Shown here one piece after another: positions 2,391-57,600 of a stretch of DNA of 64,000 nt (position 1 is the first letter of the stretch; every line of letters starts with the position of its first letter). Source of the DNA: Manduca sexta. Its lineage: Eukaryota > Arthropoda > Insecta > Lepidoptera > Sphingidae. The notes under the pieces were generated by a model. It was not told where the DNA came from. It worked only from the letters and a program-made list of their open reading frames with translations, and ran no database searches. Location of the stretch: the NCBI RefSeq assembly GCF_014839805.1, contig NC_051118.1, positions 4,642,391-4,706,390 of the forward strand, in the 5' to 3' direction. The translations under genes and the position numbers were made by a program.

Positions 2391-2391
2391 T

Positions 2392-3040: not shown

Positions 3041-3716
3041 TAAAAAACCTTACGCCACAACCCTACCGATAAAGCCATCCGAAACTGCACACTATTCGCC
3101 ACGCGTCAGATGAAACCGTGAGTCAGTATTCCGTGGAACTGTTGATAGTTGATGCTGACATTCGCGAAAACACGTGGCTTGTATCAAACCAAACAGGACA
3201 CCAAATCAAAATACACCCGGCACGTTTGAGTGTGTGAGTCAATTTGCCATAGATGAGTATTGAGATGTCTATTAATAACAAATGATTTTATTACGTATAC
3301 AGTTATATATAACACGTACACAGTTGTATGTGTTAAAACAATTTGAGGTGCTTTTTCTACATCGCGCTGAATGATTGGTTAATTTAACGAAGATAAGCAA
3401 TTTGTTTTATGGAAAAAGGGAGCTTGTTCTGTGTAGGAATAAATGTTATTAAACATAAAATTTACTAGTTACTGATATATGTTTATAAAAACTAGTACGT
3501 AGGTACAAATCATTCTATACCTAAAAAACTCAATAACTTTGAAACAAAGTTACATAAAAAATTGAAATTTCCCAGACATCCAAAACATTCAATTACCAAG
3601 CACATGGCGCTATACTCATCATCTTGAAGAAACACTCCAAAAATCCGACTAACGGGCATATCCTTAAATTTTCAAAACCTATCCATTCAGAAAAAAAATA
3701 ACGCACATTGACGTAT

Positions 3717-9619: not shown

Positions 9620-10079
9620 TCTTCTTCTTCTTCTTCTTCTTTGATTACTGGCGACGAGCTTGATTATGAAGCTATTCCGCCAATGTCACGTTGTTTCAGA
9701 CTGCAGATTACTGAGGTATTAATCTGGGTATTAAAGTTAAATGTCTTTATGATGAAGACTTTTGTTAATGGGAGAAGATAAACGAAGGGGATTTGACAGT
9801 TCCATAGAGAATATAACCACTACGTTAAGACAGTTTTTGAGTGACAGTTGACTCTCTTTTTTTCCCTCGTAGCGTATTGAATTGATGTTTTCCCCAAATG
9901 TTAGTGATCTACAGCAACATGTATATGATAAGTAGACATCACGCATATAAATATGATTTCAAACCAATAAATAAATAACACCACATGCATTAGATATAAC
10001 TAAACGTACAGAAACATTTGGCACTTATGACTAAAAAGTTAGAAAGGACTTTAGACTTAGACAGTTACCTATGTTATAA

Positions 10080-15097: not shown

Positions 15098-15340
15098 AGC
15101 AACCGTTTGGGAAATATCCGGGGGATCGGGGGGTCCGGAGGTGATATGTCCATTGTTACTATATGAGATAGTAACAAGGACTAATTAATACACAAAAACA
15201 CTTACCGACACCACTAAGAATATACAAAACACAATTCAATAGGAATTATAGTAATATAGAGATTTCCTGATTTTTTTAAAAGGTTTAAATACAGAATCCC
15301 ACTGACTCGTGTATCAGCTACCCTCCAAAAAAAAAAAAAC

Positions 15341-27660: not shown

Positions 27661-30600
27661 ATGAAAGAAGAGCAAGATGACGGAGAATATATTGATAGCA
27701 GCGATAATGGAGATACAGAACCAATTAACCGCCATATGAGCACAGAGAGGTTTATAGAAGCAATTAAAAATAATCCAGCAATTTGGGATCCTACATCCCG
27801 CGACTACGGCAACCGATTACAAAAGACAAAGTCTTGGGAACGGATTTGTGCGAAAGTCATGTCCTCTTATTCAAATATGAATGCGAGTGAAAAGAGTAAA
27901 TCAGGTAAATAAATTAATCTATTGGCATTATATCGACGCCATTCTTAGTTGATACTTATGGCATGAATTATGATCGATTTGCACACGATTACACTAGATT
28001 TTAGTTTTTGTGAATCGCGAGCATGGCGTGCATTACACAGGAAACTATTTATCCGCTATAAACAAATAATATAGCACGTATGGAGCCAAACATATTTTGT
28101 TTTGACGAGTGCAGGTTGCGAGTTGCGACAGCAACAGAAAAGTAGTCTGCGAGCAGTGTCGTCTGACATGCGCGACAAAGACGACAGTCAACTCTCAACA
28201 CTGACGCAACTCGCAAGCTACCGTTCCATTGCACGCAGGATTGTGGTTATGACGTGGCCCATAAAATAAAAATACATTAAATAATAATAGCGGATATAAA
28301 TAAAATAATTAGATAGTTTCGGTTTTTTTAAGGTTAGTGATTTCTATTTTTTTTATTTGTGTTAAAGGCATGGGAAAGAGCTCTGTCAAGGTAGCAGTAG
28401 TAACTTAGCAGAATTAAACCAAATATATTTTAGAATTTGTTGCTAATTTGTTGCTAATTAGTTACCACTATTTCGATTTTGTTGCTCCAGCCGTTTAGAA
28501 AAAACCGGTCACTGCTATCATGATATCAAGCTAGCATGGACCATAACGAAACTTATACTTATATGATCAGACGTAATGTAGAATTTGCTGCTAATTTGTT
28601 GCTCATTAGTTACCACTATTTCGATTTTTTGCTCAAGCCGTCTAGAAAAAAAAACTCCCACTGCTATCTTGATATCAAGCTAGCATGGACCCTCACGAAA
28701 CTTATACTTATTTGATCAGACGTAATGTAGGAATTTGTTGCTAATTTGTTGCTAATTAGTTACCACTATTTCTATTTTGTTGCTCCAGCCGTTTAGAAAA
28801 ACCGGTCACTGCTATCATGATATCAAGCTAGCATGGACCATAACGAAACTTATACTTATATGATCAGACGTAATGTAGGAATTTGTTGCTAATTTGTTGC
28901 TAATTAGTTACCACTATTTCGATTTTTTGCTCCAGCCGTTTAGAAAAAAGCTACCACTGCTATCTTGATATCAAGCTAGCATGGACCCTAACGAAACTTA
29001 TACTTATTTGATCAGACGTAATGTAGGAATTTGTTGCTAATTTGTTGCTAATTAGTTACCACTATTTCGATTTTTTTTGCTCAAGCCGTTTAGAAAAAAA
29101 GCTGCCACTGCTATCTTGATATCAAGCTAGCATGGACCCTCACGAAACTTATACTTATTTGATCAGACGTAATGTAGGAATTTGTTGCTAATTTGTTGCT
29201 AATTAGTTACCACTATTTCGATTTTGTTGCTCAAGCCGTTTAGAAAAAAAAACTACCACTGCTATCTTGATATCAAGCTAGCATGGACACTCACGAAACT
29301 CATACTTATATGATCAGACGTAATGTAGGAATTTGTTGCTAATTTGTTGCTAATTAGTTACCATTATTTCGATTTTGTTGCTCAAGCTGTTTAGAAAAAA
29401 AAGCTACCACTGCTATCTTGATATCAAGCTAGCATGGACCCTAACGAAACTTATACTTATTTGATCAGACGTAATGTAGGAATTTGTTGCTAATTTGTTG
29501 CTAATTAGTTACCACTATTTCGATTTTTTTGCTCAAGCCGTTTAGAAAAAAAAGCTACCACTGCTATCTTGATATCAAGCTAGCATGGACTCACGAAACT
29601 TATACTTATTTGATAAGTCGTAATGTAGGAATTTGTTGCTAATTAGTTACCACAATAAGGATTATGTTGCTCGAGCTGTTTTGAAAATAAAAATAATTTA
29701 ATAATATAAAATAAATAAACGGCCTTCAAAACCACTCAAAACCAAAAAAATTTCACATAACAGGTATATACTGGATACGAATTTTGGAGTCGGTGTCTAA
29801 TTGAAATTGCTGGTTAAGCTAGATGGACTTGTACTATAAAATATACTGTCTCGATGGCGTAGTTATGTTTCGCTTACAATACGACTATCGCGTTGAAATG
29901 TTACACCTTTGCCTACCCCTGAAAAGGGAAAAGGTGTGATGCTATACATATGTATGTAAGTAGATTCAAGCAAACTTAAATCAAAAACACAACTGATAAT
30001 ATTTCGATCACAGTACAGCTATCGCGCTGTGGTGTTACACTTCTGTCTATCCCTTAAAAGGGATAAAGGTGTGATGCTATAATATATATTATGCATGTAT
30101 GATCTATGTCAAAATATGAAATGTAAAACAACAAAATTATGTTTGTAAATGTAGGCGTATGCACGCTGTACACTGTTTCATAATTTTTATAAATGTTTTA
30201 GTATTATTGTTTTTTTTTTCGTTAATTTTTAGTTGTTGTTAAATACTTTTAGGTGGATTTTCTCCGCACTTTTACGGTGATGAGCGTATATAAGCTTATA
30301 TAATTAATCAGACTTTGTATACAAAAGACTTATTAAAAATATATATATTTAAAAAATAATATTATAAAAGATTCAATGGACAATTGATGACAAAAATAAA
30401 GCCCGGAGTTTCTTTCTGCCTTTCTTCTTCGGGTAGTTATCGCTTAGGTAGCTAGTGAAAGGCTGGTAGGTTAGCTAGGTTAGGGCTTTTATTGTCCTCA
30501 CCGATGAGGATCACGACGCGTTTCTCCCTTATTATTTATTTAAAATAACATATATACATCATTTTATTTCTTCTTTCCTGCCAGCCCGAGCTGGCTTCTT

Positions 30601-33600
30601 TGTTTACTATACTTTTCATTAACTTTATTACCTATATAAATTGTTTTTTGACCTGTTTGAAGTTGGCAAGTGAGTTTAAAATTATACTAGGTCAGTACCG
30701 GATTGTACCGTTTTTATTTTGTTTGTACCTTATAGGGACAAGAGATATGGTGTACTGAGAGTTTTGTCAATCACCGCCTTGTGTAGTAACATAAACTCGC
30801 GGCATTTTCAAATCAACCATCATTTTAATGATTTTATAGCTGAAAGAAGACGACTGAAGACGGAAGACGCCCCTCAGAGGTACAATCCCTCTCTAACATG
30901 GTACAATCCGAAACAAGGGAGTACAAACGATGGAAATCCGCGAAATACGTAGAAAATGATTATTTTTTTAAAATTACAGCCATTTTCAAATGAATAATTA
31001 ATATGATGATTTTATTGCTGAATATCATGGAAGAATATGTCACTCAGAGGTACTATCCCTCTGTAATATAATACAATCCGAAACAAGGGAGTACAAACGA
31101 TGGAAATCCACGAAATACGTAGAAAATGATTATTTTCTTCCAAGTACGGCCATTTTCAAATGAATAATCATTGTGATGATTTTATAGCGGAATATGATGG
31201 AAGAATACGTCACTCAGAGGTACAATCCTCTGTAATATAATACAATCCGAAACGAGGGAGTACAAACGATGGAAATGCACGAAATACGTAGAAAATTATT
31301 ATTTTCTTCCAAGTAGGGCTATTTTTAAATAAATCATCATTGTGATGATTTTATAGCTGAATGTGATGGATGAATACGTCCCTCAGAGGTACAATCCCTC
31401 TGTAATATAGTACAATCGAAACAGGGAGTACAAACGATGAAATCCACGAAATACGTAGAAAATGATTATTTTTTAAAATTACAGCCATTTTCAAATGAAT
31501 AATTAATGTGATGATTTTATTGCTGAATATCATGGAAGAATATGTCACTCAGAGGTACAATCCCTCTGTAATATAATACAATCCGAAACAAGGGAGTACA
31601 AACGATGGAAATCCACGAAATACGTAGAAAATGATTATTTTGTTAAAATACCGCCATTTACAAATGAATAATTAATATGATGATTTATTGCTCAATATCA
31701 TGGAAGAATATGTCACTCAGAGGTACAATCCCTCTGTAATATAATACAATCCGAAACAAGGGAGTACAAACGATGGAAATCCACGAAATACGTAGAAAAT
31801 GATTATTTTCTTCCAAGTACGGCCATTTTCAAATGAATAATCATTGTGATGATTTTATAGCGGAATATGATGGACGAATATGTCCCTCAGAGGTACAATC
31901 CCTCTGTAACATAGTACAATCCGAAACGGGAAAGTACAAACGATGGAAATCCACGAAATACTTAGAAAATTATATTTTTTTAAAAAAGTACAGCCATTTT
32001 CAAATGAATAATTAATATGATGATTTTATTGCTGAATATCATGGAAGAATATGTCACTCAGAGGTACAATCCCTCTGTAATATAATACAATCCGAAACAA
32101 GGGAGTACAAACGATGGAAATCCACGAAATACGTAGAAAATGATTATTTTCTTCCAAGTACGGCCATATTCAAATGAATAATCATTGTGATGATTTTATA
32201 GCTGAATACGATGGATGAATACGTCCCTCAGAGGTACAATCCCTCTGTAACATAGTACAATCCGAAACGAGGGAGTACAAACGATGGAAATCCACGAAAT
32301 ACGTAGAAAATGATTATTTTCTTCCAAGTACGGCCATTTTCAAATGAATAATTAATGTGATGATTTTATAGCTGAATGTGATGGAAGAATACGTCCCTAA
32401 GAGGTACATTTCTCTGTAACATAGTACAATCGAAACCACGGAGTACAAATGACGGAAATGCACGAAAGTAGAAAATTATTATTTTCTTCCAAGTACGGCC
32501 ATTTTTAAATAAATCATCATTGTAATGATTTTATAGCTGAATATGATGGACGAATACGTCCCTCAGAGGTACAATCCTCTCTAACATAGTACAATCCGAA
32601 ACAAGGGAGTACAAACGATGGAAATCCACGAAATTCGATCAAATTTATAATTTTTGAAAAGGTAGAGCCATTTTCTAATGAATCATCATTATGATAATTT
32701 AATAGCTGAATATGATAGAGGCAAACATTCTTCATAGGTACAATTCCTCTTAAATATACTACAATTTGAAATAAGGGAGTAAAACGAAGGAAATCCACGA
32801 AATACGTTGAAATTTATATTTTTTGTTTTATCCTAGTGCGAAATGCAAGGGGTCAACTGATCTTAATAATATTCCTTGGGAATTTAAAATTTTGATACCA
32901 TAAAACCCAATAACTAGGCAATAGACAAAAATCAAAACTGAAATAATATTTATAATGAGTGGCACAAAACANNNNNNNNNNNNNNNNNNNNNNNNNNNNN
33001 NNNNNNNNNNNNNNNNNNNNNNNNNNNNNNNNNNNNNNNNNNNNNNNNNNNNNNNNNNNNNNNNNNNNNNNNNNNNNNNNNNNNNNNNNNNNNNNNNNNN
33101 NNNNNNNNNNNNNNNNNNNNNNNNNNNNNNNNNNNNNNNNNNNNNNNNNNNNNNNNNNNNNNNNNNNNNNNNNNNNNNNNNNNNNNNNNNNNNNNNNNNN
33201 NNNNNNNNNNNNNNNNNNNNNNNNNNNNNNNNNNNNNNNNNNNNNNNNNNNNNNNNNNNNNNNNNNNNNNNNNNNNNNNNNNNNNNNNNNNNNNNNNNNN
33301 NNNNNNNNNNNNNNNNNNNNNNNNNNNNNNNNNNNNNNNNNNNNNNNNNNNNNNNNNNNNNNNNNNNNNNNNNNNNNNNNNNNNNNNNNNNNNNNNNNNN
33401 NNNNNNNNNNNNNNNNNNNNNNNNNNNNNNNNNNNNNNNNNNNNNNNNNNNNNNNNNNNNNNNNNNNNNNNTAACATAGTACAATCCGAAACGGGAAAGT
33501 ACAAACGATGGAAATCCACGAAATACTTAGAAAATTATATTTTTTAAAAAGTACAGCCATTTTCAAATGAATAATTATTATGATAATTTGTTTGCTAAAT

Positions 33601-36600
33601 ATCATGGAATAATATGTCACTTAGAGGTACAATCCCTCTGTAATATAATACAATCCGAAACAAGGGAGTACAAACGATGGAAATCTGCGAAATACGTAGA
33701 AAATGATTATTTCTTCCGTACAGCCATTTTCAAATGAATAATCATTGTGATGATTTTTATAGCTGAATACGATGGATGAATACGTCCCTCAGAGGTACAA
33801 TCCCTCTGTAACATAGTATAACCGAAACGAGTACAAACGATGGAAATCCACGAAATACGTAGAAAATGATTATTTTCTTCCAAGTACGGCCATTTTCAAA
33901 TGAATAATTAATGTGATGATTTTATAGCTGAATGTGATGGAAGAATACGTCCCTAAGAGGTATCATTTCTCTGTAACATAGTACAATCTGAAACTACGGA
34001 GTACAAATGACGGAAATGCACGAAATTCGTAGAAAATTATTATTTTCTTCCAAGTACGGCCATTTTTAAATCAAATCATCATTGTAATGATTTTATAGCT
34101 GAATATGATGGACGAATACGTCCCTCAGAGGTGCAATCTCTCTAACATAGTACAATCCGAAACAAGGGAGCAAACGATGGAAATCCACGAAATTCGATCA
34201 AATTTATAATTTTTGAAAAGGTAGAGCCATTTCTAATGAATCATCATTATGATAATTTAATAGCTGAATATGATAGAGGCAAACATTCTTCATAGGTAAA
34301 CAATTCCTCTTATATATACTACAATTTGAAATAAGGAGTAAAACGAAGGAAATCCACGAAATACGTTGAAATTTATATTTTTTTGTTTTATCCTAGTGCG
34401 AAATGCAAGGGTCAACTGTTCTTAATATGTATTCCTTGTGAATTTTAAAATTTTACGATACCATAAAACCCAATAACTAGGCAATAGACAAAAATCAACT
34501 GAAATAATATTTATAATGAGTGGCACAAAACACGTGCGCTTCTTTACCCACTTAGTGACTTTAAGGTATAATAAAACAAAGGTTATTAATTAAGGTTACA
34601 AAATTATTTATATTTTTATTACTTTACGCAGCCATTGCTCTGTGGTTCTTGGTTAAATTTATGACATTTGCGCAAACTTTTACAAGCGTTAATACAAATA
34701 GTGGTATGCATTGTTAAGTAATTATTTGTAATTAAAATAATAAAGAGTTTTTTCTTGAACTGTTAACTATTTCTATCTCTAGATTTTTATATGTACCTGT
34801 GTCTTGTTCCCAAACTGGTAAGTTGTATAAAGCCAAACTTTTCCAGATAAACTCAAAATTATATAATTATGCCTATTTTCAAAGGAGGCGATAAGACAAA
34901 CCCTGGCAACTAACGGTCAATTGCAGTATTGCCGGTCCTTAAAAAAACTTTCCAAACCAAAAACAACACGAATAAAAATACTTCTAATAAAAAATCTGCC
35001 TGCAGAATGCATTTAATAAAGGATCACAAAACGTGTAACATAGTACTAACAGTCATTAAAGCAACGGATAGTTTCCTTTATTTTTAATCCTAATTAAAAG
35101 TTACTCAACGTTTTGCGCAAATGTCATAAATTTTACCAAGAACCAAAGAGCAACAGCAGCGTAAAGTAATAGAAAAATATAAATATTTTTCGTAACCTTA
35201 ATTAATAACCTTTTGTTTTATTATTGATTTTTACTTTTGTTGTTGTATAGTGTTTGTTTTTGTTATCATTTTGACTTTATTTGCGTTCTTATTACACTTC
35301 CCATACACAAATTTTAATATCAGTTTATTTTTCAAATCCAGTGTGGACGACTGCTCAAATAAAATTACCAAAATGAGCAAAAAATACATATATTTGTACA
35401 TATCAAAAAGCGCAATGGTATCAATAACAAGCTTCTGAAGCACCATAAATATTACGTCATACATTAGTGAACCTTCATAGTCGGGACTATCATCCACACA
35501 TGACAGCGATCGTACTACATGTGAAAAGGATTCTACTACTAAGGCAACTATTTTCTATCATATTCAGCTGTGAAACCATCAAAATTATCATTCGTTTGAA
35601 AATGACTGTACTTTTTCAAAAAAAATTAAATTTCAACGAATTTCGTGGATTTCTTTCGTTTTACTCCTTATTTCAAATTGTAGTATATTTAAGAGGAATT
35701 GTACCTATGAAGAATGTTTGCCTCTATCATATTCAGCTATTAAATTATCATAATGATGATTCATTAGAAAATGGCTCTACCTTTTCAAAGAATTATAAAT
35801 TTGATCGAATTTCGTGGATTTCCATCGTTTGTACCCTTGTTTCGAATTGTACTATGTTAGAGATTGCACTTCTGAGGGACGTATTCGTCAATCATATTCA
35901 GCTATAAAATCAACACAATGATGATTTTATTTAAAATAGCCGTACTTGGAAGAAAATAATCATTTTCTACGTATTTCGCAGATTTCCATCATTTGTACTC
36001 CCTGGTTTCGGATTGTAGTATGTTACAGAGGGGATTGTACCACTGAGGGAAATATTCTTCCTAGTATTCAGCAATAAAATCATCATATTAATTATTCATT
36101 TGAAAATGGCTGTACTTTTTAAAAAATAATAATTTTCTAAGTATTTCGTGGATTTCCATCGTTTGTACTTTCTCGTTTCGGGTTGTACTATATTACAGAG
36201 GATTGTACCTCTGAGGGACATATTCTTCCATAGTATTCAGCAATAAAATCATCATATTAATTATTCATTTGAAAATGGCTGTACTTTTTTAAAAATAATA
36301 ATTTTCTATGTATTTCGGATTTCCATCGTTTGTACTTTCCGTTTCGGATTGTACTATGTTACAGAGAAATTGTACCTCTGAGGAACGTATTCATCTATCG
36401 TATTCAGCTATAAAATCATCACAATGATTATTCATTCGAAAATGGCCGTACTTGGAAGAAAATAATCATTTTCTACGTATTTCGCAGATTTCCATCGTTT
36501 GTACTCCCTTGTTTCGGATTGTATTATATTACAGAGGGATTGTACCTCTGAGTGACATATTCTTCCATGATATTGAGCTATAAAATCATCATATTAATTA

Positions 36601-39600
36601 TTCATTTCAAAATGGCTGTACTTTTTAAAAAAATAATCATTTTCTACGTATTTCGTGGATTTCTGTCGTTTGTACTCCCTTGTTTCGGATTGTACTATGT
36701 TATAGAGAGATTTGTACCTCTGAGGGACGTATTCGTCCATCATATTCAGCTATAAAATCATCACAATGATGATTTATTTAAAATGGCCGTATTTGGAAGA
36801 AAATATTAATTTTCTAGGAATTTCGTGAATTTCCATCGTTTGTACTCCCTTGTTTCGGATTGTACCATGTTAGAGAGGGATTTTACCTCTGAGGGGCGTC
36901 TTCAGTCTTCAGTCGTCTTCTTTCAGCTATAAAATCATTAAAATGATGGTTGACTTGAAAATGCCGCGAGTTTATGTTACTACACAAGGCGGTGATTGAC
37001 AAAACTCTCAGTACACCATATCTCTTGTCCCTATAAGGTACAAACAAAATAAAAAACGGTACAATCCGATACTGACCTAGTATAATTTTAAACTCACTTG
37101 CCAACTTCAAACAGGTTAAAAAACAATTTATATAGGTAATAAAGTTAATGAAAAGTATAGTAAACAAAGAAGCCAGCTCGGGCTGGCAGGAAAGAACAAA
37201 TAAAATGATGTATATGTTATTTTTAAATAAATAATAAGGGAGAAACGCGTCGTGATCCTCACCGGTGAGGACAATAAAAGTCCTAACCTAGCTAACCTAC
37301 CAGCCTTTCACTAGCTTCTTAAGCGATGACTACACGAAGAAGAAAGGCAGAAAGAAACTCCGGGCTTTATTTTTTGTCATCAATTGTCCATTAAATCTTT
37401 TATAATATTATTTTTAAATATATATATTTTTGAATAAGTCTTTTGTATACAAAGTCTGATTAATTATATAAGCTAATATACGCACATCACCGTAAAAGTG
37501 GAGAAAATCCACCTAAAAGTATTTAACAACAATTAAAAATTAACGAAAAAAAACAGTAATACTATAAAAATAATTGTAAGAAAAAATTAAACCGCCTTCA
37601 AAAACCACTCAAAACCAAAAAATAATTTCACATAACAAGTATATATTGGATACCAATTTTGGAGTCGGTGCCTAATTAAAATTGCTAGTTAGCTATATTT
37701 GTTGCATAGTCCATCTATGAGCTAAATTTCTTTCAAATCAATTAAAAGGAGTAGGTTTGCGTGTACTACAACATACACAGTGAAAGGTGTAATACCAAGC
37801 ACATGTATGGTGTTTCATCTTTTCGAGGCAGGAGTGTAATACACCCACATTTGACCAGCTATATGTAACAGGGGAAGAATTTGGGTAGTGTACAGTTCAC
37901 AAATTTAAATATTTCCTTAATAGTTTTCATTTGCTGTGCTGCGGCGATGTGTTTATCTCCGGTGACAATCTGACTTGCTGACTTTGTACGCTGGCAGCAC
38001 ATTGTTTTCGTATATTCGTTAATGTATTTATCTAGTAACTAGCAATTTTAATTAGGCACCGAATCCAAAATTGGTATCCAATATATACTTGTTATGTGAA
38101 ATTATTTTTGGTTTTGAGTGGTTTTGAAGGCGGTTTAATTTTTGTTAAAATTATTTTTTATTTTGCTTTTTGTGTTAGTAAAAAGTAGACCGTCTCAATG
38201 GCATAGTTGTGTTTCGCTCACGATACGACTATCGCGCTGAGGAGTTACACCTCTGAGTACCACTGAAAAGGGGAAAAGGTGTGATGCTATATATATATGT
38301 ATGTAAGAAGTAGATTCAAGCAAACCTAACGCAAAAACACAACTGATATTATTTGGCTCACAGTACAACTATTACGCTGTGGTGTTACACCTCTGCCTAC
38401 CCCTGAAAAGGGGAAAGGTGTGATGCTATATATATATGTATATGTATGTATGTAAGAAGTAGAGTCAACTAAACCCAACGCAAAAACACAACTAATGTGT
38501 TTCGCTCGCAGTACGACTATCACGCTGTAATGTTACACCTCTGCCTACCCCTGAAAAGGGGAAAAGGTGTGATGCTTTTATATATGTATGTAAGAAGTAG
38601 ATTCAAGCAAACCTAACGCAAAAACACAACTGTTATATTTGGCTCACAGTACTACTATCGCTGTGGTGTAACACCTCTGCCTACCCCTGAAAAGGGTAAA
38701 AGGTGTGATGCTACATATATGTATGTATGTAAAAAGGGGAGTCAATTAAACCCAACCCAAAAACACAACCGATATATTTCGATCATACTATAACTATTGC
38801 GCTGTGGTGTTACACCTCTGCCTGCCCCTGAAAAGCGGAAAATGTGTGATGCTATATGTATGTATGTATGTAAGACCTGACACGGGAAAAGATGTTATGC
38901 TATATGTATAAGTATGTGAGAAGTACAGTCAACCAAACTCAATGCAAAAACATAACTAAATACGTCACAGGAAAGCTAAATTACCGATTTCGTTTTCTTG
39001 GACGACATAATTATTCTAGTTTTTTTTTAATTTTAAAACCAAACTACCGAAGCGATCTTGAAAAAAAATTGATGGGACCAATCTGGAGAGAAATTTTTTC
39101 GAATAAAAAAAGAATTTTCCAAATCGGTTCATAAATGAGCGAGTTCTGAGGTCATAAACATACAAAAAAAATTCACGTCGAATTGATAACCTCCTCCTTT
39201 TTTGAAGTCGGTTAAAACGTTTATAAAAACTATGAAACAGTGTACAGCGTGCATACGCCTACATTTACAAACATAATTTTGTTGTTTTACATTTCATATT
39301 TTGACATAGATCATACATACATACATGCATAATATATATTATAGCATCACACCTTTATCCCTTTTTAAGGGATAGACAGAAGTGTAACACCATAGCGCGA
39401 TAGCTATACTGTGATCGAAATATTATCAGTTGTGTTTTTGATTTAAGTTTGCTTGAATCTACTTCTTACATACATATATATAGCATCACACCTTTTCCCC
39501 TTTCAGGGGTAGGCAAAGGTGTAACATTTCAGCGCGATAGTCGTATTGTAAGCGAAACATAACTACGCCATCGAGACAGTATATTTTATAGTACAAGTCC

Positions 39601-42600
39601 ATCTAGCTTAACCAGCAATTTCAATTAGACACCGACTCCAAAATTCGTATCCAGTATATACCTGTTATGTGAAATTTTTTTGGTTTTGAGTGGTTTTGAA
39701 GGCCGTTTATTTATTTTTATATTATTAAATTATTTTTATTTTCAAAACAGCTCGAGCAACATAATCCTTATTGTGGTAACTAATTAGCAACAAATTCCTA
39801 CATTACGACTTATCAAATAAGTATAAGTTTCGTGAGTCCATGCTAGCTTGATATCAAGATAGCAGTGGTAGCTTTTTTTTCTAAACGGCTGGAGCAAAAA
39901 AATCGAAATAGTGGTAACTAATTAGCAACAAATTAGCAACAAATTCCTACATTACGTCTGATCAAATAAGTATAAGTTTCGTTAGGGTCCATGCTAGCTT
40001 GATATCAAGAGAGCAGTGGTAGCTTTTTTTTCTAAACAGCTTGAGCAACAAAATCGAAATAATGGTAACTAATTAGCAACAAATTAGCAACAAATTCCTA
40101 CATTACGTCTGATCATATAAGTATGAGTTTCGTGAGTGTCCATGCTAGCTTGATATCAAGATAGCAGTGGTAGTTTTTTTTTCTAAACGGCTTGAGCAAC
40201 AAAATCGAAATAGTGGTAACTAATTAGCAACAAATTAGCAACAAATTCCTACATTACGTCTGATCAAATAAGTATAAGTTTCGTGAGGGTCCATGCTAGC
40301 TTGATATCAAGATAGCAGTGGCAGCTTTTTTCTAAACGGCTTGAGCAAAAATCGAAATAGTGGTAACTAATTAGCAACAAATTAGCAACAAATTCCTACA
40401 TTACGTCTGATCAAATAAGTATAAGTTTCGTTAGGGTCCATGCTAGCTTGATATCAAGATAGCAGTGGTAGCTTTTTCTAAACGGCTGGAGCAAAAATCG
40501 AAATAGTGGTAACTAATGAGCAACAAATTAGCAACAAATTCCTACATTACGTCTGATCATATAAGTATAAGTTTCGTTATGGTCCATGCTAGCTTGATAT
40601 CATGATAGCAGTGACCGGTTTTTTTTTTCTAAACGGCTGGAGCAACAAAATCGAAATAGTGGTAACTAATTAGCAACAAATTAGCAACAAATTCCTACAT
40701 TACGTCTGATCAAATAAGTATAAGTTTCGTGAGGGTCCATGCTAGCTTGATATCAAGATAGCAGTGGTAGCTTTTTTTTCTAAACGGCTTGAGCAAAAAA
40801 ATCGAAATAGTGGTAACTAATGAGCAACAAATTAGCAACAAATTCCTACATTACGTCTGATCATATAAGTATAAGTTTCGTTATGGTCCATGCTAGCTTG
40901 ATATCATGATAGCAGTGACCGGTTTTTTTTCTAAACGGCTGGAGCAACAAAATCGAAATAGTGGTAACTAATTAGCAACAAATTAGCAACAAATTCCTAC
41001 ATTACGTCTGATCATATAAGTATAAGTTTCGTGAGTGTCCATGCTAGCTTGATATCAAGATAGCAGTGGTAGTTTTTTTTTCTAAACGGCTTGAGCAACA
41101 AAATCGAAATAGTGGTAACTAATTAGCAACAAATTAGCAACAAATTCCTACATTACGTCTGATCAAATAAGTATAAGTTTCGTTAGGGTCCATGCTAGCT
41201 TGATATCAAGATAGCAGTGGTAGCTTTTTTTCTAAACTGCTGGAGCAAAATAATCGATATAGTGGTAACTAATTAGCAACAAATTAGCAACAAATTCCTA
41301 CATTACGTCTGATCATATAAGTATAAGTTTCGTTAGGGTCCATGCTAGCTTGATATCAAGATAGCAGTGGTAGCTTTTTTCTAAACGGCTTGAGCAAAAA
41401 ATCGAAATAGTGGTAACTAATTAGCAACAAATTAGCAACAAATTCCTACATTACGTCTGATCATATAAGTATAAGTTTCGTTATGGTCCATGCTAGCTTG
41501 ATATCATGATAGCAGTGGTAGCTTTTTTTTCTAAACGGCTTGAGCAAAAAAAATCGAAATAGTGGTAACTAATTAGCAACAAATTAGCAACAAATTCCTA
41601 CATTACGTCTGATCATATAAGTATAAGTTTCATTATGGTCCATGCTAGCTTGATATCATGATAGCAGTGACCGGTTTTTTTTCTAAACGGCTTGAGCAAC
41701 AAAATCGAAATAGTGGTAACTAATTAGCAACAAATTAGCAACAAATTCTAAAATATATTTGGTTTAATTCTGCTAAGTTACTACTGCTACCTTGACAGAG
41801 CTATGGGAAAGTCTTTTTGTTTGAGGTATCAAGACTACAAATTTATTATTTTCCTAATAAAAATATAATATTATTGTTTGAGACGAAGAAAGCCAGAAAA
41901 AGTAAATTATTTTGGACGAGATATATTTTTAAAAAGTAGACTAGTATAATATTTTGAATTTAGATGTAGGAAAACAAAATTTAGCGAAATTAAAATAGAA
42001 ATACTATAAAACTCTGGGCAGGACAAAGGCAATTATTTACTTCGGGGAAATATATAGCGGAACTTTTGCTTCGAAAAAGCTCTTTTACAAGAGCGAGAAA
42101 AAGCAATTGAATAATATTTTACAATGTTATCTACATTTCATTTCACATTTGATAGTAAGACTTTTATTTTGTACCTCATTTTAATGTTCTAAGTTTCCAT
42201 AGTTGAATGTGGAACAGTTTCTTTACATGAATTTATTATTTTCAGTTTTAAAATTGCAACGACGATGGAAAAGCTTAAGAAGTTGCTATTGCAGGGAGAG
42301 AAAGAAGAAGAGGAGCCAGAAAAACAGTTCAGATGCTTCATTTCACAAAGAATATCTTTATTTTTCTCAGATGTCATTTTTAAATTCTATTCATAGGGGA
42401 TTTAAATTTGAGCCACCTCCGAACAGTACTCCACAAGTTACAAAGAAGGTTATACCAATAGTTAGTATGGAGGTGACACCGCATGACGAAGCTAGTAGTC
42501 AGAAGTCAGATGAAGATGACGCGAAAGAAATGGTGCATGACCATGATCTCAATTTCATACATTCGTTATTGCCGCATTTTAAGAAAGTTCCTGATGAGTA

Positions 42601-42809: not shown

Positions 42810-42899
42810 CTTTATTAAAAGAAAACTTTTTACTTTCCCCTCATAATTTTGGTTGTTTTCCAGCTAACATAATTAACTAGTCATGCAGTCTATTTGGCC

Positions 42900-45614
42900 A
42901 TGCCTTCAAAAATGGCATTGGCTATAATACTATTACTCGTATTTAAATTATGTTCGGCAAATATAACATTATTAAAAGAGACTAAACAAATAAATTCTTC
43001 GGAAGATGAGATACGATTTGACGATCCCAGCCGACCGACACTCGGATACCCTACTTCTCTAGGTTTCTTGTTTATATCAGCTACGTTACTAGTCGGTGTT
43101 ATAGTCAGATCGATTATGCTATGGTTGAAATTGTGTGTTCCGTATCGAGTGATAATGTTCTTTCTTGGAGGCCTCGCTGGGATTTGCGCCAACCGCTTCC
43201 CCGCCTTCAAACCTGTCGTATACATTTGCTATATTGACGTTGACGTGCTATTAATCACCTTCCTACCAATTCTGATCTTTAGCACGTCGTACAGTGTGGA
43301 TTATCACTCTTTTTGGAGGAGTTTCCCTCAAATTTTACTGGTTGGAGTACCAGGAGCTTTGCTAACAGCATTGACTGCGGCCTTCATGGCTTATTATTTG
43401 ATAGAATCATCCTGGAATTTTTCTACGGCTATTCTGTTTGGGATAATATGTTCTCCTATATACCCTATGGAGGTTGTTAAGCAGTTAAAAGAACTTTCTA
43501 GAGGGAAATATATTGGCGTCCTGTTGCTTGGTGAAGGATTGATTGGAGATGCAACGGCTATGATCGAATTTACTGCTGTTTTTGGGTATCTAGCATTAGC
43601 GTTAACTGAAGCTTCGCAAATATGCATATTACTCCTAAGATATGCTGGTGGTGGGATCCTTTTGGGGCTTGTCATGGGTAAAATAATCGGTTGTGTGCTC
43701 TCAATAACTTACTACGATATTCTATGTGCAGTAACTGTAACGATTTCTGGGGCTTACCTGACTTACTATATCGGAGAGAAGTTCCTATACGTTTCTGGGT
43801 TACTAGGAACTGTTATAGCAGGAGTGTTAGTCAGTAACAAGAAGTCCACAGTTGCTGGAGACGTGGAGCAGGTAGTAGCACATTTCTGGACCATTATGGC
43901 CCACGCTGCTAATACTTTGGTGTTCACGATGGTTGGTGTGGTCATTTTTGAGAAAGTCAGTTATGTGATCAGCGTACGACAAGTTTCGCTTGTGTTTGTT
44001 ACGTATACTACGGTTTATTGTTCGAGGTAAGTGTTTATAATGTCCATACGCTCCTAAAAGAGTAAATAGGCGATAAATTCATGATAAATATTTTAGGTTG
44101 ATGGTGTACTCAATAATGACTCCAATTCTCCGTCATGTCGGCTATGGGATGACTTGGCAGCATTGTATGGCGTGTGTTTGGGGAGGGCTCCGAGGACCTT
44201 TGTCTTTATGCCTTGCTCTTATTGTTCTTCAAACTCCTGCTGTTGCTGATGCAGGCGAGGTAAGCTTGCTTGTTGACTATATATCGAATGATACTCAAGA
44301 TTTCGTTTCTATGTAGGATATAGGATTTTATTGTATGCTTTTTTAATACCTCCACTTCAACAAAATTAGGTAACATTTTATAGATATGTAGAGAATACTA
44401 GGAACCTTACGATTACATTACAGGTTTTTTTATGATTTGTACGACATTTTATTAGCTACGTATAGAACAGCAGATGACCATGGAGACAGTACTGTAGTAA
44501 AAGAAAGAAAATATCTTATTCTTGAAATTGCATACTAACGCAAGCTAAGTAGATAAATCTGTATCACTAAAAACACATTAATGTTATTACTGTAAAGACT
44601 CGTCGGCAGGAAATAGCTCTTTTTGAACTTTCATCCCTAATTAGTCACAGAGTCTAAGTTAATTCCTTAATGAATGAAACCAGAAAACTAGTAAGACCTC
44701 ATTAAAATGCATAATTACAGATATTTATAATCCAAACCGCGGGTCTTGTGATCTTATCTCTCCTTATAAATGCAACAACCATGCAAAAGGTGCTCAAGAT
44801 ATTGGGATTAGCTGAGATATCCTTAGCAAAGAAAGCTAACATGACGAACTGCGTGAAAAGAATTATGACAACGAGAGATCGTTGCATCTCCATGCTTAAG
44901 ATGGATAAGTTTCTAGCTGATGCTAATTGGGACTTGGTTATGGAAGGTGAAGAATTTGTTAAATAAATAGATCTAATAATTCAATTTAATAGTTTTACCT
45001 TATAGGATATAAGTCTTGTATCGAAAAAATCAGCAGCTACGAAAGAGTTTCGGGACCGCCTCGTCTAGATTCCTTATAAGTATGTGTGAGCTTTAGTGGT
45101 CATAATATTTATTGATTTATCTTATACATGTTTCGAAATACCAATATTTGTTGCCCTAAGCTTTAAACCTTCAAACTTATCTTTGAAGTGGATAGGCATT
45201 AGATATTTAGATAATACTTAACAATTCGTGTTTGTTCCTGCCTATCTTCTATATTTCGTATCTAAAGGAACTAATGCTATGATCTTGGAAAATAATTTCA
45301 TCATGGTCATACATTTATGTTTTAACTCACGCTAGAGGTAGCTGGATGTTTTTTTTTTTCAATAAAAGCAGTATTTGTCTTGGCTGATTAAACTGATCAT
45401 GTAATACACTTATTTCAAGATTGAATTGATTAAAGATATCAAATTTTCCCTTTCCAGGAACAACAATTAAACACCCGTACCAAATACAAATATCAGGTCG
45501 TGATGAAGACAGTGATGATGATACTTACATGGGGTACCGGTATACCACTTGTCCAGATTGCGAACGAGAGATACCCAACGAGCCGACAAAGAAAGAGTTT
45601 GCTGAAATGATGAG
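42900..45614 (+). other. SLC9C1 exons 1-4: exchanger (NHE) transport domain
   Basis: About residues 1-557. Hydrophobic helices begin at residue ~48 (LGFLFISATLLVGVIV). The ion-binding helix reads GEGLIGDATAMIEF: Glu212 and Asp217 match the Glu and Asp of the NHE1 ESLLND motif, but the Asn of the ND pair is Gly216. The later signature WGGLRGPLSLCLAL (Arg408) matches the WGGLRGA helix of NHEs. Exon 3 encodes the last helix, IIQTAGLVILSLLINATTM, followed by a cytosolic linker rich in Lys and Met. Confidence 0.85.
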
Positions 45615-48600: not shown

Positions 48601-51600
48601 ATACGATGTTGGTAAGGTAATTGCTTTGCATTTTATCATTGCTGTTGACGGTTTTAGCTCCACAATATTGAGGACTGAGGCGAAAAAGAAGGTCAGCGTA
48701 GAACTGATCCCCCAGAGTCCCGTAGTTATTAGACATCAACAGATCAAATTTTACACAGCGTTCCATAATAAAATAGATGTTCTATATGGGGTCTATTTAC
48801 CCAATAGCTATTTATGGTATCCAAGATCGAGGCGCCTATGTATCGAAAAAATTATAAGCAGGATTCTGGAAAGGTCTAGTACGATTCTAAAGAGTGCCTA
48901 GAGTCTGGCTTTGCTTATGGTTTATTATTTTAGGGTTTTGTAACCGGTGAGCAAGAGGTGTGCAATCTGCTACCTCAGTTAGTTGACAACAGGCAGATCC
49001 AGGAAACGTTGAATGCTAGACTAGAAGCTGATAGGTGGGTTTTTGTATCCTAAAACACAATTACATACTGAACGAGGTAAGACACTCGTCTGATGGTTAT
49101 ATCCCATATGCCAGTGGTACCACCATAAAAATAATGTTTCTAAGTCTTTCTTTTGCAGTGGCGAAGGATGATATTTTCCAAAAGGGAAACCGATATAATT
49201 TATAGATTCTAATAATACCTATGCATAAATATGGTTTGCAAATCGTTCTAATAATGAGACTTTACATAAATAGCGAAAGGAAAGCAGACAGGAATTTGTT
49301 TATATGGACCCTTCGCCACTGCTCTTTTGCTGTATTTAAGTTTTCAATTATTTCCTAGACATTTGTCCTTATAAGAGATATGCTCACGATCGAATGATGT
49401 AATAATACAGTGTTTTATTTTTCAAATATCATATTACGTTCATGCTTAGAAAGGTATACAAATTTCATATCATGCGGATTTTTTCAATTAAAATAAGCTA
49501 CTATACTTTTTTCACTACTTTTACCAATCGGCCACTAAAATGACACCTGTATACCTACGTGGCAATGAGGTGTGTAACCCAAGTCGTTCTGCATTAAATT
49601 TTGTCCACCGCCTTATGAATTGTCATCTTAGTCTCTGAAAACAATATGCGTCACTTGTAGTTCTTTGAAATTAATATTGTAAAGGTTGACAATAGCTGTA
49701 CTTAAATTTAGGTTGACAGTAACTCGCCAGCTGGGTTTACTGCAGCGAGACCGCCCCTGGACAGCAATAACAGTGAAGACACGGCAAGCTACCACATCCA
49801 CGCTGAATATTATGTTATTAGACGCTATGCAGTTGAAGGAAGAAGGTTGTATATTTGTGAAACCAACACACAAAATCCCGCCATTTTGTCATGTTCCAAG
49901 GTTGGCCGGTGAACATGTAGTAAATTAATTTGATATATCATCCATCAGATCATCAGATTTGAATAATCTGAATAGCTTCAAGATAGGTGCTACATCACTT
50001 TTTTAATATTTTATTTATTTAGGTTTGCTAACAGTTGTAACAATTTTACAAAAAATATAAAACTTACACACTAGGTTAGGATAAGTTGCACAACCAATTA
50101 CAAGCAAACACAGCAAGCAAAAAATACAAAATTAAAAAATAAATTAGGGTAATAACGGACAATACAATGTAATTCCAGGAGACCTGGGCACAGCAACAAA
50201 ACTTAAAAATCTAATGTAACTTACTTAACTTATTACTTCTAGTATATATATATATATATATTCTTAGGTATTTGAACTCTTTATTATTTACATGACACGA
50301 TGAACTTTTCTATTAGCGACATCTAGTGAGGTTAAAATTTTTTGTCCTAAAAATTTTCATTTTCTTACACTAGAGGCGTTACGGTAGATAATTGTTTCTA
50401 CTAGTTCTTATAATTCTATCAGTGGCGAAAATTTATATAAAAAAAGAAATACATTTTATAGTTTTTATTAGATGCGTATAAATTATTATAGAATGTATAT
50501 ACTTTAATTAATAATAAAAATTGTATAGACTTCAGATTTATTGTATGACATAGACATCATACGCATGCGCAGTAACGGTTACGATAGTTGCGAAATGTTT
50601 CCACCGTCTATGCATCGATCGCCGCTACGAGTGAATGTATTCGGTGTAAGAAACTAGATAATGCACGTCGTTAGATGTTGATATCGAAGTTCAGAATATT
50701 TTTGACAATAGGGTTGCTCTACTTTCAGTGATTTGTAATATTTCACGTATTTTCACGAGCTTTAAATAGTTCGTAGATTGTATACTATTCGTAAACTGTA
50801 AATTATTATAATTTATAATTTAAAACATCTTAACAAAATAACCTCATAATAATGTTACAGCATCATACGTCATATTTATTCAAACTATACTATATCGTTA
50901 ACAATAAATACTTTATAATGTGCTCCAGTAAATGACACAATTATTCACAAATACAACTTAATGCCACAACAGATTAAAAAGTTTCTTCAAACTGCACAGA
51001 AGCATCGCTGTCATGCGTAGTTTCTTGTTTCGCGTATCGGATACCAGAAAATAGAAACGTCAAATGTCAGTCTCACTTGTTTACCGCGGTGGATAGTTGT
51101 GCACTTGACGTTTATTTTCTACAATGATGAAAGAGGAACAGGACGATGAATATATTGATAGCAGCGATAATGAATCGTTGGAGCGTATAAACCAAGAAAT
51201 GAGCACAGAAAGATTTATAGCAGCTGTGAAAAGTCAACCAGCGCTGTGGGACGCCAGAGCTGCAGGTTACAACAGCCGCTTCCAAAAGATAAAGTCTTGG
51301 GAAAGAGTGTGTTATAAAGTAATTCCTAATTTTACACGATTAAATACGAGTGAAAAGAATGAAACAGGTAAATATTTTGTAATTTGTGTTTATTGATTTC
51401 GTTTTTAGGTGACAAGTTGACATAATCAATTTAATTACTAACTATTATGTTGATACTAGCTTTTACCGCGGTATCGTTTACCTAAACAATATAAATTTGT
51501 ATCCAGACTTGGTAGATTTTAGTTTCGCAAGCGTGTGGCATGTGTTGACGTACGGAGTAAAAACATTTCGTCGCGTGTGAGGTGCGAGTTGCGATAGAAT

Positions 51601-54600
51601 ATTAGGTGACCGCAACGTGCGAAAGAGACAGAAAACTATGCCCGTTCACTCACAAGTCATAATAATTTCATCGATTAGTGGCTATGATTTGAGGTTGTAA
51701 AATGGTAGATGATTATGTTTTGGCTTATTTTTTTTGTCTGGAATCGTATGTTCCGAAGGTCGCCAGAAAAGGGAAATATTTTTTCACCCGGTGCTTGACT
51801 ACCTAAAGCCGGTTACGCTCGATAAATTCCAATATGAGTATTCTCGCTCTATATAAGAGATACTTACTATAGATTTAAAGTTGGCGAAATGCGAGGTTAC
51901 ATTTCTTTTAAAAAGGAAACAGTTGTGATTATTCATGTTTAGGTTAGGATATGTAGTTCTTCTATTTAAATAATAGAAAACATTTTGTATTTAATTTCAG
52001 TTACAAAACTTCAAAGACGGTGGAAAAGTCTAAGGGTATGCTACATCAGAGAATTAAGACAAAAAATGGACGAGAAAAACAGTAATGGCGTATTTCCGAC
52101 ACGTAAAGAATATCGCTATTACTCCCAGTTATCGTTTTTAAGAAACTCATGCCAGCCGAAGGAAAGCGCGTTACTTACAGTAAAACCTACTCATATGTTG
52201 CAAAAGAAACCACCAGAAACAAACGTACCGAAACACGAAGACACCAGAAGTCAGAAGTCAATGGATGATGCGAAAGAATGTACAAATGACCATGATCTCA
52301 ATTTTTTACACTCGTTGTTACCGCATTTTAGAAAAGTTCCTGAGGAGCGCAAGTTGGACCTTCAGTCAGAGATATTAGTGACGCTGAAGAAGTATGTCAG
52401 TTGGCAGAAGAACACAACGAATGCCAATGAGAACTGCGAGCCGTATGGACATTTCCTAGATATAGCCTGTGGTTCTGGCGAGACGGATTCAGAAGGAAAT
52501 GTTACTTTAGAACTGACTTAGTATTAGATTTATAGTGTTGACGTATTTTTATTAAAAAAAACTCAATAAAATATCACTTGCATTATTTTATTCATCTACT
52601 GTAATTTATTGAAGTGTTAATTTAACAATTTTATTCATAGAAAAAAGCGACAATAGCCTTTGGTTGTGGAACGGACTGCCGAGATGAATGTCCGCAGGTT
52701 CAAATCTCAAGGGCACACATCTATGATTTTTCTAAAATTATGTGTGTATTCTTTGTGAATTATCGCTTGCTTAACGGTGAAGGAAAACATCGCGAGGAAA
52801 CCTGCATGCCTGAGAAGTTCTCTATAGGAATTTCGAGGGTGTGTGAAGTCTACCAATCCGCACTAGGCCAGCGTGATGGAATTAGGGCTAATCCCTCTCA
52901 TTAGTAGAGGAGGCCCGTGACCGATAGTGGGACAGTATATAATATAGGGCTGATATTATATATTCATAGACAAAGCTGATGTCACATTTCATTTGGGTAA
53001 AAACTATGATGGGTAACTCTAACTTTAAAGTAAAGGCACTCGCGGAACACCAAATTCTTGTCATACTTAAAATTGATAATTAAGTACCTTGTTTATATTT
53101 ATAGAACAAATCTGTTGAATAGATTTTGACTGTCTCAGTGGCGTAGATGTATTATGCCCCGGTTCACTGCTCTGAGGTCCTGGATTCGAATCCTGAGTCA
53201 GGTAGTGATATTGGATTTCTCTGCTCAGAATAGCCCGGTGTCTGAAATTTGTACCCGATATAATGAAAGGCTCGCCCCCTATCACATCATGAGATGGAAC
53301 ACAGAGGTTAAAAGTGTCCTGTTTGCACCTCTGTACCTCTTCGGGGATAAATGCGTGTCGTATGTGTATTTTTGAATACATTTTCAAAAATAATAGAAAA
53401 TACCTACACTGACTGTATTTTACAGGATTCTTGGATGAAATGGAATACCGTTTGCTAGTAAATGCAATACAGGAGAAGGTGCAAATGTGTCGTCATAAAG
53501 GCAGCCTAGTGGCTCCCTCTGCGCCTGAGGTTAATACAAACTTTATAGTTGATTTTAGCTGCCTTCTACTCAGAACCTAGAACATACTACGTTGCATCCT
53601 CCATGGCGTTTCGGTGGCTGTGGTATGTCTAGTCTCAACTCAGACCCTTAAACATACTAAGCTTCCTCTTCGATAGTGTTATGGATGTGTTGTCTTGTCT
53701 GTGTCACAAAGATAATTTAGTTTAGTTAACAATCAGCACATTGAAGTGGAATTGTGCCGGACACGTTTGCAAACGGACGGACAGTTGATAGACTAGACAG
53801 GTGTTGGAGTGGAGACCGCGGTTAGGAAGACGTAGTGTAGGATGCTCAGCTGCACGATGGGTCAACGACTTGAAAAAGGCAGGTTGTGGATGGATGCGGG
53901 CTGCTTAAGACCGGTATGGTTGGCGCTCACTTGGGAAGGCCGATGTTCACCACTGGACGGAGACAGGCTCATCGATTTCATTCTGCGACCCAAATAGATT
54001 TACAATTAATAATTGCAGTGATCTTATCCGGAAATCATGACAGAATATCTCTTACGTTAAGAATCAAGCCCAGATCCTTCCCACTACCGATTTTGCAGCG
54101 AATATATTACACGAATTTGCAGTATTTTAACAAATGTTTTTATAAATTTTATATTGAAAGTCGTGACAATAAATCATTCTGCATTTGTCTATCTGTAAAA
54201 TGTTCAGTGACAGTGTAGTTTTAATAAAGGGTATTAACCTTTTAACAGACCCAACTACGGGCAGTGTCATGGCTACAAGGAAATGAAAGGGTGGCAGACT
54301 TCTTCCTTGAAAACTCACAAATCTTCAACTACAACTTCAATGATATATTGATATCTAGAGGTGAGTAAACACAGATAAAATATCTTATTCGAAATAACAG
54401 TTAAAATATTTTAAATGTAGAATGGGGTAGTTAGGGTTCCGTAGAATGCCAGCAGAAGCTCAAGCCTACGTAGCTCGGTTTTGGATATTTGATAAATAAA
54501 GAGCTCTGTCTTTTGAAGTGTAACAGTTGTTTAAGGTCTAATATTTCCACAGATTAATTATATTTATGGCGTGTGCTTACTACTGATTATATTACAACCA

Positions 54601-57600
54601 AACCCAATGCAAAAACATAAAAATATACCTAAAAACATTACTTACAAGAAAGCAAATTCGTTTACTTGAATGACATAATTATTCTAATTATTTTCGTTTA
54701 AAAACTAAACTACCGATGCGATTTTGAAAAAAATCTATAGGACCAATTTGGAGGTATACTTATTCTTACGAATAAAAAAATAAATCCAAATCGGTTCATA
54801 AATACCGACGTCCGAGGTAACAAACCTAAAAAAATAAACACATCGAAGTTAACATCTTCTTTTTTATTAAGTTGTAAATACAGTACTCTCGTATGAAACC
54901 ATTGTCAAATATTTTGCGTTTTAGGTGACGAGCCCAAAGGCTTGTACATTGTTGTGTCAGGGCTCTTGGAAGCCAGCTACGTGCCGCCCGACGGCGATAT
55001 TGATGAAGCAATACCCAACTACGAGTTCTTTACTGATTTAAAATTTGCCGAGCCTAGCCAAGATTATATCGTTTCTGGCAATGCTGTTGGCGTACTTGGG
55101 GTAAGTATGACTTTTTTGAAAGAGGTAAAGTTATGATAAATTATTAAAAAAAATATCAATCAAGTATTTTTAATTAAATGACATTATAATTCTCGTTGAA
55201 GGTTACATAATTATGTTTTTATTATTGAAGGTGCCAATAATTATCAAGTTTTTTTTTTCTAAACTTCGCTCTACATGTATATTTTACAAGTTTTCTAATA
55301 TTCGCTGGTATAAGAATGATTGGATCTCTTATGATAGGTAAATGTTACCAATCTATAAATATATATGCCCTGCTGGACTCAAAGGAAAGGAATAAAAATA
55401 AGGGAGGAGGTGTTTAGACCTTTGAAAATATAATATTACATTTTAATGTTTTTAATACATAATGATTATTGGGGTAACGTCAAATCACGGGTTTTCCTGT
55501 TGTTTTAAGATTATTGCTAAATCGTAATTCGTAACTAAAATTAATACAATTGTAGTACGTTAAAAATAACATTTCAAGCTGTGTTTTCAGTATTGTTAGT
55601 ATTAAGAAACATTGTGATGTAGCTGTAGGAGTAATTTTATAACGAATGGACTACCTCGTGATCCGGCATTACCCCAATGCGTTCTATTTGTTTTTTTATT
55701 TTAAATATATATTTTTTTAATCGGTAGTAAAGTGTTTTATTTATAGGTTTTGACGAATCGCCCGTACAACTACACTGTACGCTGTGACTCTGCCGTGCAA
55801 GCTTACTTCATAACTTTGCCTATAATAAAGGAGGCGTTCAAGATTGCCCCACATCCGATTATGGGGTATGCATTTGTATTATTATATATTACTTTAATAT
55901 ACTTCATTATCAGTAAATGATGTAAACAAAGTTAGTATAGGCTTATAAAACATAAGCGTAGTATCACGCATTTCCCTTTTACAGGGGAAAAAGAGATAAA
56001 AGGTACGCATATTTCGCTTATTAAATTGGTTACATCATAGGAGTTTATTGCTTTTACCGGGCATAATCAGAGACCTTAGCACGGCAATTGTATCGCGTGC
56101 ACAACGTGCAACTGAGTCACTCAATTAAAAAAAAAAACAATAGGAATCTATGTTTTTTTACCCGGCAACGGTACTAAACGCGGCGTAGCTTCAATCTGAA
56201 ATTACTGTATATTCAATTTTGTGGATTTTTGTCGGTCTTTATTCGCCCAATTTTATTGATACGTTTCTTAGGTTAGAATCTGCAATGTGGCGCGAGATAG
56301 GCATCAAGTTTTCCATGATGGTAATGCCTACTGTGCCAGCGTACCACAGTTGGCCAGCTGAGAAACTAAGCATGCGTCTAGAACATTCCTTCGTGCCGTG
56401 TCTCAAGGCTTTTAAAGTTAGTAACAATTATAACAATATTTTATAAGTTAATAAATAGTCACATATAAACAATGCTTTTATTCCTCAAGAGTATAAAGAA
56501 AACAAGCACTTCGGAAACTTACATTTTATAATGGCAGTCGGGACAATGGTATATTACAGAATCTAAAACCAGGTTAAATGTTAATTTTATAACAATTTCT
56601 CCGAAAAAGTAAGTATCATATAATGAACCTAATTATTAAGATTATCATACCTACATGACTTGAGACTTGAGAATTTAACCTAACGCATCTACACTATTAT
56701 TCTACACTATTACCAATTTATATTTAAATTACAATCAGGTATTTGTGGTCAACGAACTTATGGAAGATATTGTATTACTGGATGGGATTTGTCAAGACAT
56801 GGCGACCAGGGAGGTGTTCCAACCACCATGTTATATACCAAGGTAGATATTTATTAGTTCTCTGTAAATGCATTTAACATACACAGCATTACGCCACTTT
56901 TCTCTTTTTCAAGGATATGGGGTGGTCTAATGGTTTTACCAGATTTCAAAATAATGTTAATCAAATTCAATTAGGTACTCGCTGTTTATCTTCAGCAGAA
57001 TTACTTTCAAGATGTAAGTACTACCTATTTACGTATTTTAAAATGATCAGGACAGTGCATCGACTGATCTTCCCCAAGTCGTCCCAGCTGATTGTGGGTA
57101 AGGGATGCCCGGAAACCAAACTGCTCATTATCCCGGCGAAAGATACAGACGAGTTCGACATCATGGAGGACGAAATAGATGATGTCCAGTGCGAATTGGT
57201 AAGTTATGTATTTGAGGTTAATTTGAACCACATGTGTTAGTTTAAACCTGTAAGAAATTAATTCGATAAGACCGCTCGGTTAAATTTAAATTGAACAATT
57301 TTAATTTCTTATGACGATATGTCACACATTATGTAATGAAAAATAAAATGGATAATTATTGCACATTTCTGTGCGATTTAATGACTAACTATTCGTTTAA
57401 GTTTATTGAATGTGTGATCTGCATACTTAACAATGAGCTAGGAAGCCAGAGTGGGTCGATAATTTATCTATGGACGTAGCTAGGGAGGGAGGGAGGGGAG
57501 GGGGGTTGGTCGTTGTTACGCTAGTGTTCTATGCCCACCCCAGGATGTTGAGGCGGTTTTAAAACATACTGAAATGCAACATGTTAGTAACTTTAATTAG

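Follow-up and report, generated by a model that had tools for sequence, protein, structure and literature searches.

The window analysed here comprises 64,000 nucleotides of the Manduca sexta genome (contig NC_051118.1, positions 4,642,391 to 4,706,390 of the forward strand) and contains a MADF-BESS gene whose intron is occupied by a large palindromic block. The block is very probably a non-autonomous foldback (hairpin-type) DNA transposon and belongs to a multi-copy family that apparently has been mobile recently. Its outermost 109 bp form a perfect inverted repeat at both ends, and it is flanked by a perfect 9-bp target-site duplication (TSD), ATGGGAAAG. Each arm consists, in the same order, of an array of a 151-bp unit (type A), a linker with type B units, a unique linker and an array of a 170-bp unit (type C). 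Such long inverted repeats of tandem subunits, capable of folding into a hairpin, correspond to the structure by which foldback elements are recognized. The first-pass annotation of the window had reported the same ends, duplication and inverted arrays, all of which are borne out at the following positions; it counted two satellite types, where at least three tandem-repeat types (A, B and C) are present.

27905–42245, + strand: intron of the host gene, interrupting the MADF domain; assembled length 14,341 bp
28370–28378, + strand: left TSD, ATGGGAAAG, 9 bp
28379–41802: whole element
28379–28432, + strand: left terminal domain, 54 bp, beginning AGCTCTGTCAAGG, within the 109-bp perfect inverted repeat
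28433–29648, + strand: left type A array, 151-bp unit, about 8 copies
29649–30200, + strand: left outer linker containing B-type units; matches the reversed 39213–39777 at 98.7% identity
30196–30862, + strand: left inner linker, lineage alpha in the arm tree, 97.6% identical to the right inner linker
30863–32812, + strand: left type C array, 170-bp unit, about 11 copies
32972–33471: assembly gap, 500 N
33472–34532, + strand: second assembly of the sequence adjoining the gap
34533–35548, + strand: palindrome centre, with an inverted repeat at 34568–34676 and 35112–35224 (91%) and about 0.4 kb between
35549–36903, − strand: right type C array, 170-bp unit, about 8 copies
36900–37567, − strand: right inner linker, lineage beta in the arm tree
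37568–39212: extra segment of about 1.65 kb carrying the type B array, right arm only, with no left-arm counterpart
38212–38875: type B array, unit of about 140 bp, right arm
39213–39777, − strand: right outer linker
39778–41748, − strand: right type A array, 151-bp unit, about 13 copies
41749–41802, − strand: right terminal domain, reverse complement of the left one
41803–41811, + strand: right TSD, ATGGGAAAG, 9 bp

A search of the window with the 20-bp terminus found just two sites at up to 3 mismatches, and none in any of 100 shuffles. Short forms of the type B unit can be seen by eye in both outer linkers, and the extra segment of the right arm was probably acquired later by nested insertion. 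Outside the element, window positions 54595–54865 are 74% identical to the right-arm region just inside the B array, which indicates that the arms contain dispersed repeats.

The placement within a MADF-BESS gene intron, also proposed in the first-pass annotation, is supported by the flanking exons, which hold positions 1–42 and 41–84 of the MADF profile, with the BESS motif also in the second exon. The closest protein, an annotated M. sexta sequence (P0001), is identical at 224 of 228 residues, one of the differences being a misreading of the exon junction, and its annotated splice agrees with a donor at 27905 and an acceptor at 42245. Once the element and one TSD are removed, the intron measures 908 bp. 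The element is present in the intron in each of the two contigs assembled for this locus.

The length of 13.4 kb given at first holds for the block as assembled and is inflated by the assembly gap. When the sequences on its two sides, 31907–32971 and 33472–34532, are aligned, 1,024 of 1,042 aligned bases agree (98.3%) and 18 differ, with 22 gap events. The second contig of the locus, C2918 (copies and contigs are named by such handles), has the same TSD and no gap; it tracks the window to position 32968 and then joins the sequence after 34532, without the repeated copy. Segment 33472–34532 is therefore most likely an unmerged overlap of two contig ends rather than a real duplication. Subtraction of the 500 N and the 1,061 repeated bases gives an element of about 11.86 kb, and 12,002 bp of C2918 lie between the left terminus and the contig end, which falls just short of the right terminus. 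Duplicated contig ends in a gapped assembly can thus enlarge the apparent size of such elements, which calls for caution.

A pattern search of the genome with the 30-bp terminus at up to 3 mismatches returned 89 matches (47 forward, 42 reverse), and the reversed control pattern returned none. All 30 termini that were fetched agree in their first 33 bp, a sample that includes the window's own termini and second contigs of some loci and comes from a search that favours close matches. All 19 pairs of opposite-facing termini within 50 kb of each other were examined for TSDs. The nine pairs that include the window's are all perfect at 9 bp, and of the ten further pairs seven are perfect, two match at 8 of 9 positions and one is a mismatch, for a total of 16 perfect 9-bp TSDs. 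These 16 are mutually different and have a GC content of 26%; common ends are thus found between differing 9-bp duplications at many sites, as anticipated for dispersed copies of a transposed foldback element, which is how the block had first been interpreted. The length also falls within the 8–11 bp of the broad Mutator superfamily. Four further termini lie inside the tested pairs and 47 are unpaired. Judging from their flanks, C2918 and the window, C204 and C13, C1458 and C3445, and C1130 and C15 appear to be duplicate contigs of single loci, so that 89 exceeds the true number of loci. The pair that fails the TSD comparison, C1130, is one of these duplicates; in its counterpart, C15, the TSD matches and 42 kb separate the two termini.

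Nine other large copies were read, which range from 7.2 to 19.5 kb and vary in the copy numbers of their arrays. At the other extreme, four terminus pairs span just 132–227 bp. One of these, on C1951, is a 132-bp miniature with a perfect TSD, whose right flank looks by eye like the inner linker found in the large elements; it is therefore possibly nested in one of them.

The first-pass annotation had called for a search for other copies with the same ends and 9-bp duplications and for the empty site in related species. Its interpretation, which a lack of further copies with these ends would have overturned, is supported by the copies described above, and one paralogous empty site was found within the genome. 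When the flanks of the C21 copy are joined, they match 38 other places, 36 of which run past the junction (40 scored of 99 candidates). Four of these places were fetched. The one on C19 contains the 9-mer GTCTGGAAT a single time; the element is absent there, and the junction aligns ungapped. Each of the remaining three differs at the junction by one inserted base.

The large copies fall into two subfamilies. In subfamily I (C9, C14, C24, C3 and the window) the whole plan is common, and in subfamily II (C23, C25, C204 and C21) the terminus, the A array and part of C are retained around a different interior. A 123-bp array is seen in C23, and the corresponding motif occurs in all four subfamily-II elements. 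C23 also contains a frame of 327 residues with no Pfam hit. This was rejected as a transposase and attributed to a retroelement, because 10 of its 115 relatives carry RVT_1 and several are named reverse transcriptase; C25, C204 and C21 hold frames beginning with the same residues. A nested long interspersed nuclear element (LINE) in C21 has RVT_1, endonuclease and FP-like domains according to Pfam.

The history of the palindrome can be read from the inner linkers of the five subfamily-I elements. A FastTree tree separates two arm lineages with a local support of 0.997, one with the left arms of C9, C3 and the window and the right arms of C14 and C24, the other with the opposite arms. The same arm is 98.4–100% identical across elements, compared with 97.2–98.0% between the arms of a single element. 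Excluded from both ranges is C2918, the second contig of the window locus and the noisier one, whose right arm is 96.6% identical to its left arm. The outer linker displays the same tendency more weakly, and C3 is not clearly sorted in it. Because the same arm is more similar across elements than the two arms are to each other, the palindrome predates these copies and spread whole; judging from the linker sequences, it is older than the dispersal of the five elements and moved as a unit. The alternative that the arms of each element had been homogenized with one another was tested and is rejected by the arm-lineage tree.

A terminus-like motif, in the opposite orientation, lies within the 151-bp A unit. 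In the best local match with the first 33 bp of the element, AAGTTACTACTGCTACCTTGA...AGCT aligns with AAGCTACCACTGCTATCTTGA...AGCT at a score reached by 1 of 1000 shuffles, and with the first 30 bp none of 300 shuffles attains the observed score. The window element has 18 copies of the motif within 3 mismatches, two being its termini, compared with 0.15 in shuffles; arrays B, C and D are not enriched in terminus-like matches. These figures are suggestive, and only suggestive, of an extra transposase-binding site in the A unit. Two results speak against such a site: the score obtained with the whole 54-bp domain is attained by 6 of 300 shuffles, and in the four elements of subfamily II no A unit has a copy of the motif within 3 mismatches. 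The latter elements contain their own termini and at most one internal copy.

A transposase was sought in the copies and in the genome. The frames considered were 34 of at least 110 residues in nine copies and five of at least 80 residues in the C2 copy. Pfam, run on 15 of the 34 internal frames, gave three hits, all parts of the nested LINE in C21, and no PHD or DDE domain. The 7.2-kb copy on C2 was examined as an autonomous candidate and rejected, since it is another foldback with a longest frame of at most 134 residues. Genome-wide, PF10551, the domain of Mutator-like elements (MULEs), has two matches over the cut-off and one weak match. That on C6 lies 6.9 Mb from the only terminus of the contig and that on C27 352 kb from the nearest terminus; C11, also with a PF10551 match, has no listed terminus. 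The C6 match is part of an 838-residue frame (556–3069 of a 3.2-kb locus), which may be a domesticated gene; the locus has no terminus-like sequence at up to 7 mismatches in 22. The C27 match sits in a frame of 120 residues. FLYWCH domains were scored in 150 of 319 candidates, and those listed are almost all located on C21 at about 11.9–12.6 Mb or on a few small contigs; they look like host exons and were rejected as a transposase source. The very large cluster of FLYWCH domains on C21 (about 11.95–12.6 Mb) is possibly the mod(mdg4) locus. The exact 21-bp terminus has no match in IMG/VR or GTDB contigs, which is no surprise for an insect element. No match came from a phage search, nor from Rfam for three 10-kb stretches at the gathering threshold. 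In the literature, the 13-base terminus retrieves only one mouse paper on another subject.

The proposed mechanism is that a transposase made elsewhere, presumably of the Mutator/Rehavkus group, would recognize the conserved AGCTCTGTCAAGGTAGCAG termini in trans and mobilize the entire palindromic unit, and that insertion at a 9-bp staggered cut would generate the 9-bp duplication. Several observations weigh against a foldback family moved in this way. No transposase was recognized in the ten large copies, including the window element, four of which contain gaps; 47 of the 89 termini are unpaired, and no transposase search was made in their interiors. The autonomous relative hoped for at first was likewise not found, and no PF10551 match lies near any listed terminus. 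Of the 19 pairs, C1130 has no TSD match and two others match at only 8 of 9 positions. The joined-flank searches for C9 and C24 gave occupied sites only, and no allelic empty site was seen. The right arm of C2918 shares only 96.9–98.1% identity with the lineage to which the tree nevertheless assigns it, a range as low as that between arms. Because no transposase was recognized, the class assignment rests on TSD length and structure, both of which agree with foldback elements of a Mutator/Rehavkus type.

The palindrome might be explained without transposition, as an artefact of assembly or an inverted segmental duplication, and the block does contain a real assembly error. This explanation is scarcely credible in view of the many dispersed copies with TSDs of their own, among which five of nine (C9, C23, C25, C204 and C21) and the 7.2-kb copy are ungapped. 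The remaining alternatives are variants of the foldback explanation and concern the source of the transposase. The chances that it comes from the Rehavkus/NOF branch of the Mutator group appear to us evenly balanced. Both 9-bp TSDs and satellite units in inverted termini, the marks of this branch, are present here, and the first five bases, AGCTC, are common with Drosophila FB4 (AGCTCAAAGAAGCTGGGGTC, PMC9682801), a weak match that arises by chance about once in 1000. No transposase or autonomous copy was identified, in a genome that was not searched for PHD fingers or with the Rehavkus transposase. A canonical Mutator/Phantom enzyme (MULE plus FLYWCH) seems doubtful: TSDs of 8–10 bp and long, internally repeated terminal inverted repeats (TIRs) are typical of the animal MULEs described in PMC5225508 and PMC3169594, but only the two MULE-domain matches on C6 and C27 exceed the cut-off, neither close to a terminus, and no element combining FLYWCH and MULE domains with these ends was found, with 150 of 319 FLYWCH candidates scored. 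The duplications of P and Galileo elements measure 8 and 7 bp, that of Galileo differing from the 9 bp seen here. A P-type (Galileo-like) or other long-TIR transposon is accordingly very unlikely, since 16 of 19 pairs have 9-bp TSDs and not 7 or 8 bp, even though Galileo TIRs, too, are described as long and internally repeated with secondary transposase-binding sites (PMC3688188). We also consider it unlikely that the foldback family represents, in full, recently mobile giant hawkmoth palindromes of 7–19 kb that were moved intact as hairpin-forming units by a transposase of no recognized MULE-domain type, and whose arms were put together from dispersed satellites unrelated to each other and from fragments of retroelements.

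In the neighbourhood of the element, a Na+/H+ exchanger frame (window 42873–44030) lies immediately downstream of the MADF-BESS gene. A tandem paralogue of this gene with an intron of about 0.6 kb occupies 51154–52518; a second protein match, P0002, corresponds to this neighbour, and its second-exon part equals 51970–52518. On the minus strand, 10074–15184 contains a non-long-terminal-repeat retrotransposon, in which the reverse-transcriptase domain was matched in two overlapping frames.

FB4 of Drosophila melanogaster generates a 9-bp TSD, and FB repeat units are much shorter than those of the hornworm element. FB4 is of the foldback class and its ends start with AGCTC (PMC9682801), an agreement seen for five bases only. 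The closest described structure found is Rehavkus-1_TC of Tribolium castaneum, likened here by description and not by sequence homology. It is 9.5 kb long, and its inverted termini hold a 164-bp satellite unit, mostly in five and eight copies (PMC10218199), and Rehavkus TSDs are given as 9 bp (PMC6446971). A size of about 10 kb, a tandem unit of about 160 bp in the inverted termini, the unequal unit numbers and the occurrence in several copies are features of both (PMC10218199), whereas the hornworm family spans 7–19 kb, has composite arms with at least three repeat types and has no recognized transposase. In view of the beetle element and of the corrected size of about 11.9 kb, the first-pass annotation overstated novelty and unusual size (PMC10218199). 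Tetris of Drosophila virilis resembles the hornworm element, again by description, in its terminal domain, tandem units (about 220 bp), middle free of open reading frames and 8–10-bp TSDs, but its reported TIRs reach at most 1,735 bp (PMC4079207), compared with arms of 4–5 kb in the C9 copy. Tm1 of root-knot nematodes and Muta1 of Aedes aegypti have 9-bp or 8–9-bp TSDs, composite foldback-like TIRs and non-autonomous derivatives, but repeat units of about 12–14 bp and known MULE transposases, and Muta1 measures 3.2 kb (PMC3169594, PMC5225508). Galileo of Drosophila has a long TIR as well, with tandem units that hold experimentally shown transposase-binding sites (PMC3688188); unlike what is proposed here, its transposase is of the P superfamily. 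A survey of arthropod MULEs lists lengths of up to 9,972 bp and TIRs of up to 1,193 bp and does not mention Manduca in its main text (PMC13359780).

No foldback family of Lepidoptera was found in the searches made of an open-access library; the family is new within a general type, foldback transposons, that is already known, its closest counterparts being compared by description. It offers a clearly bounded foldback family with multiple copies in a moth that is in wide use as a model. The combination of near-identical same arms with an older divergence between arms offers a system for studying how 10-kb palindromes survive replication and move whole.

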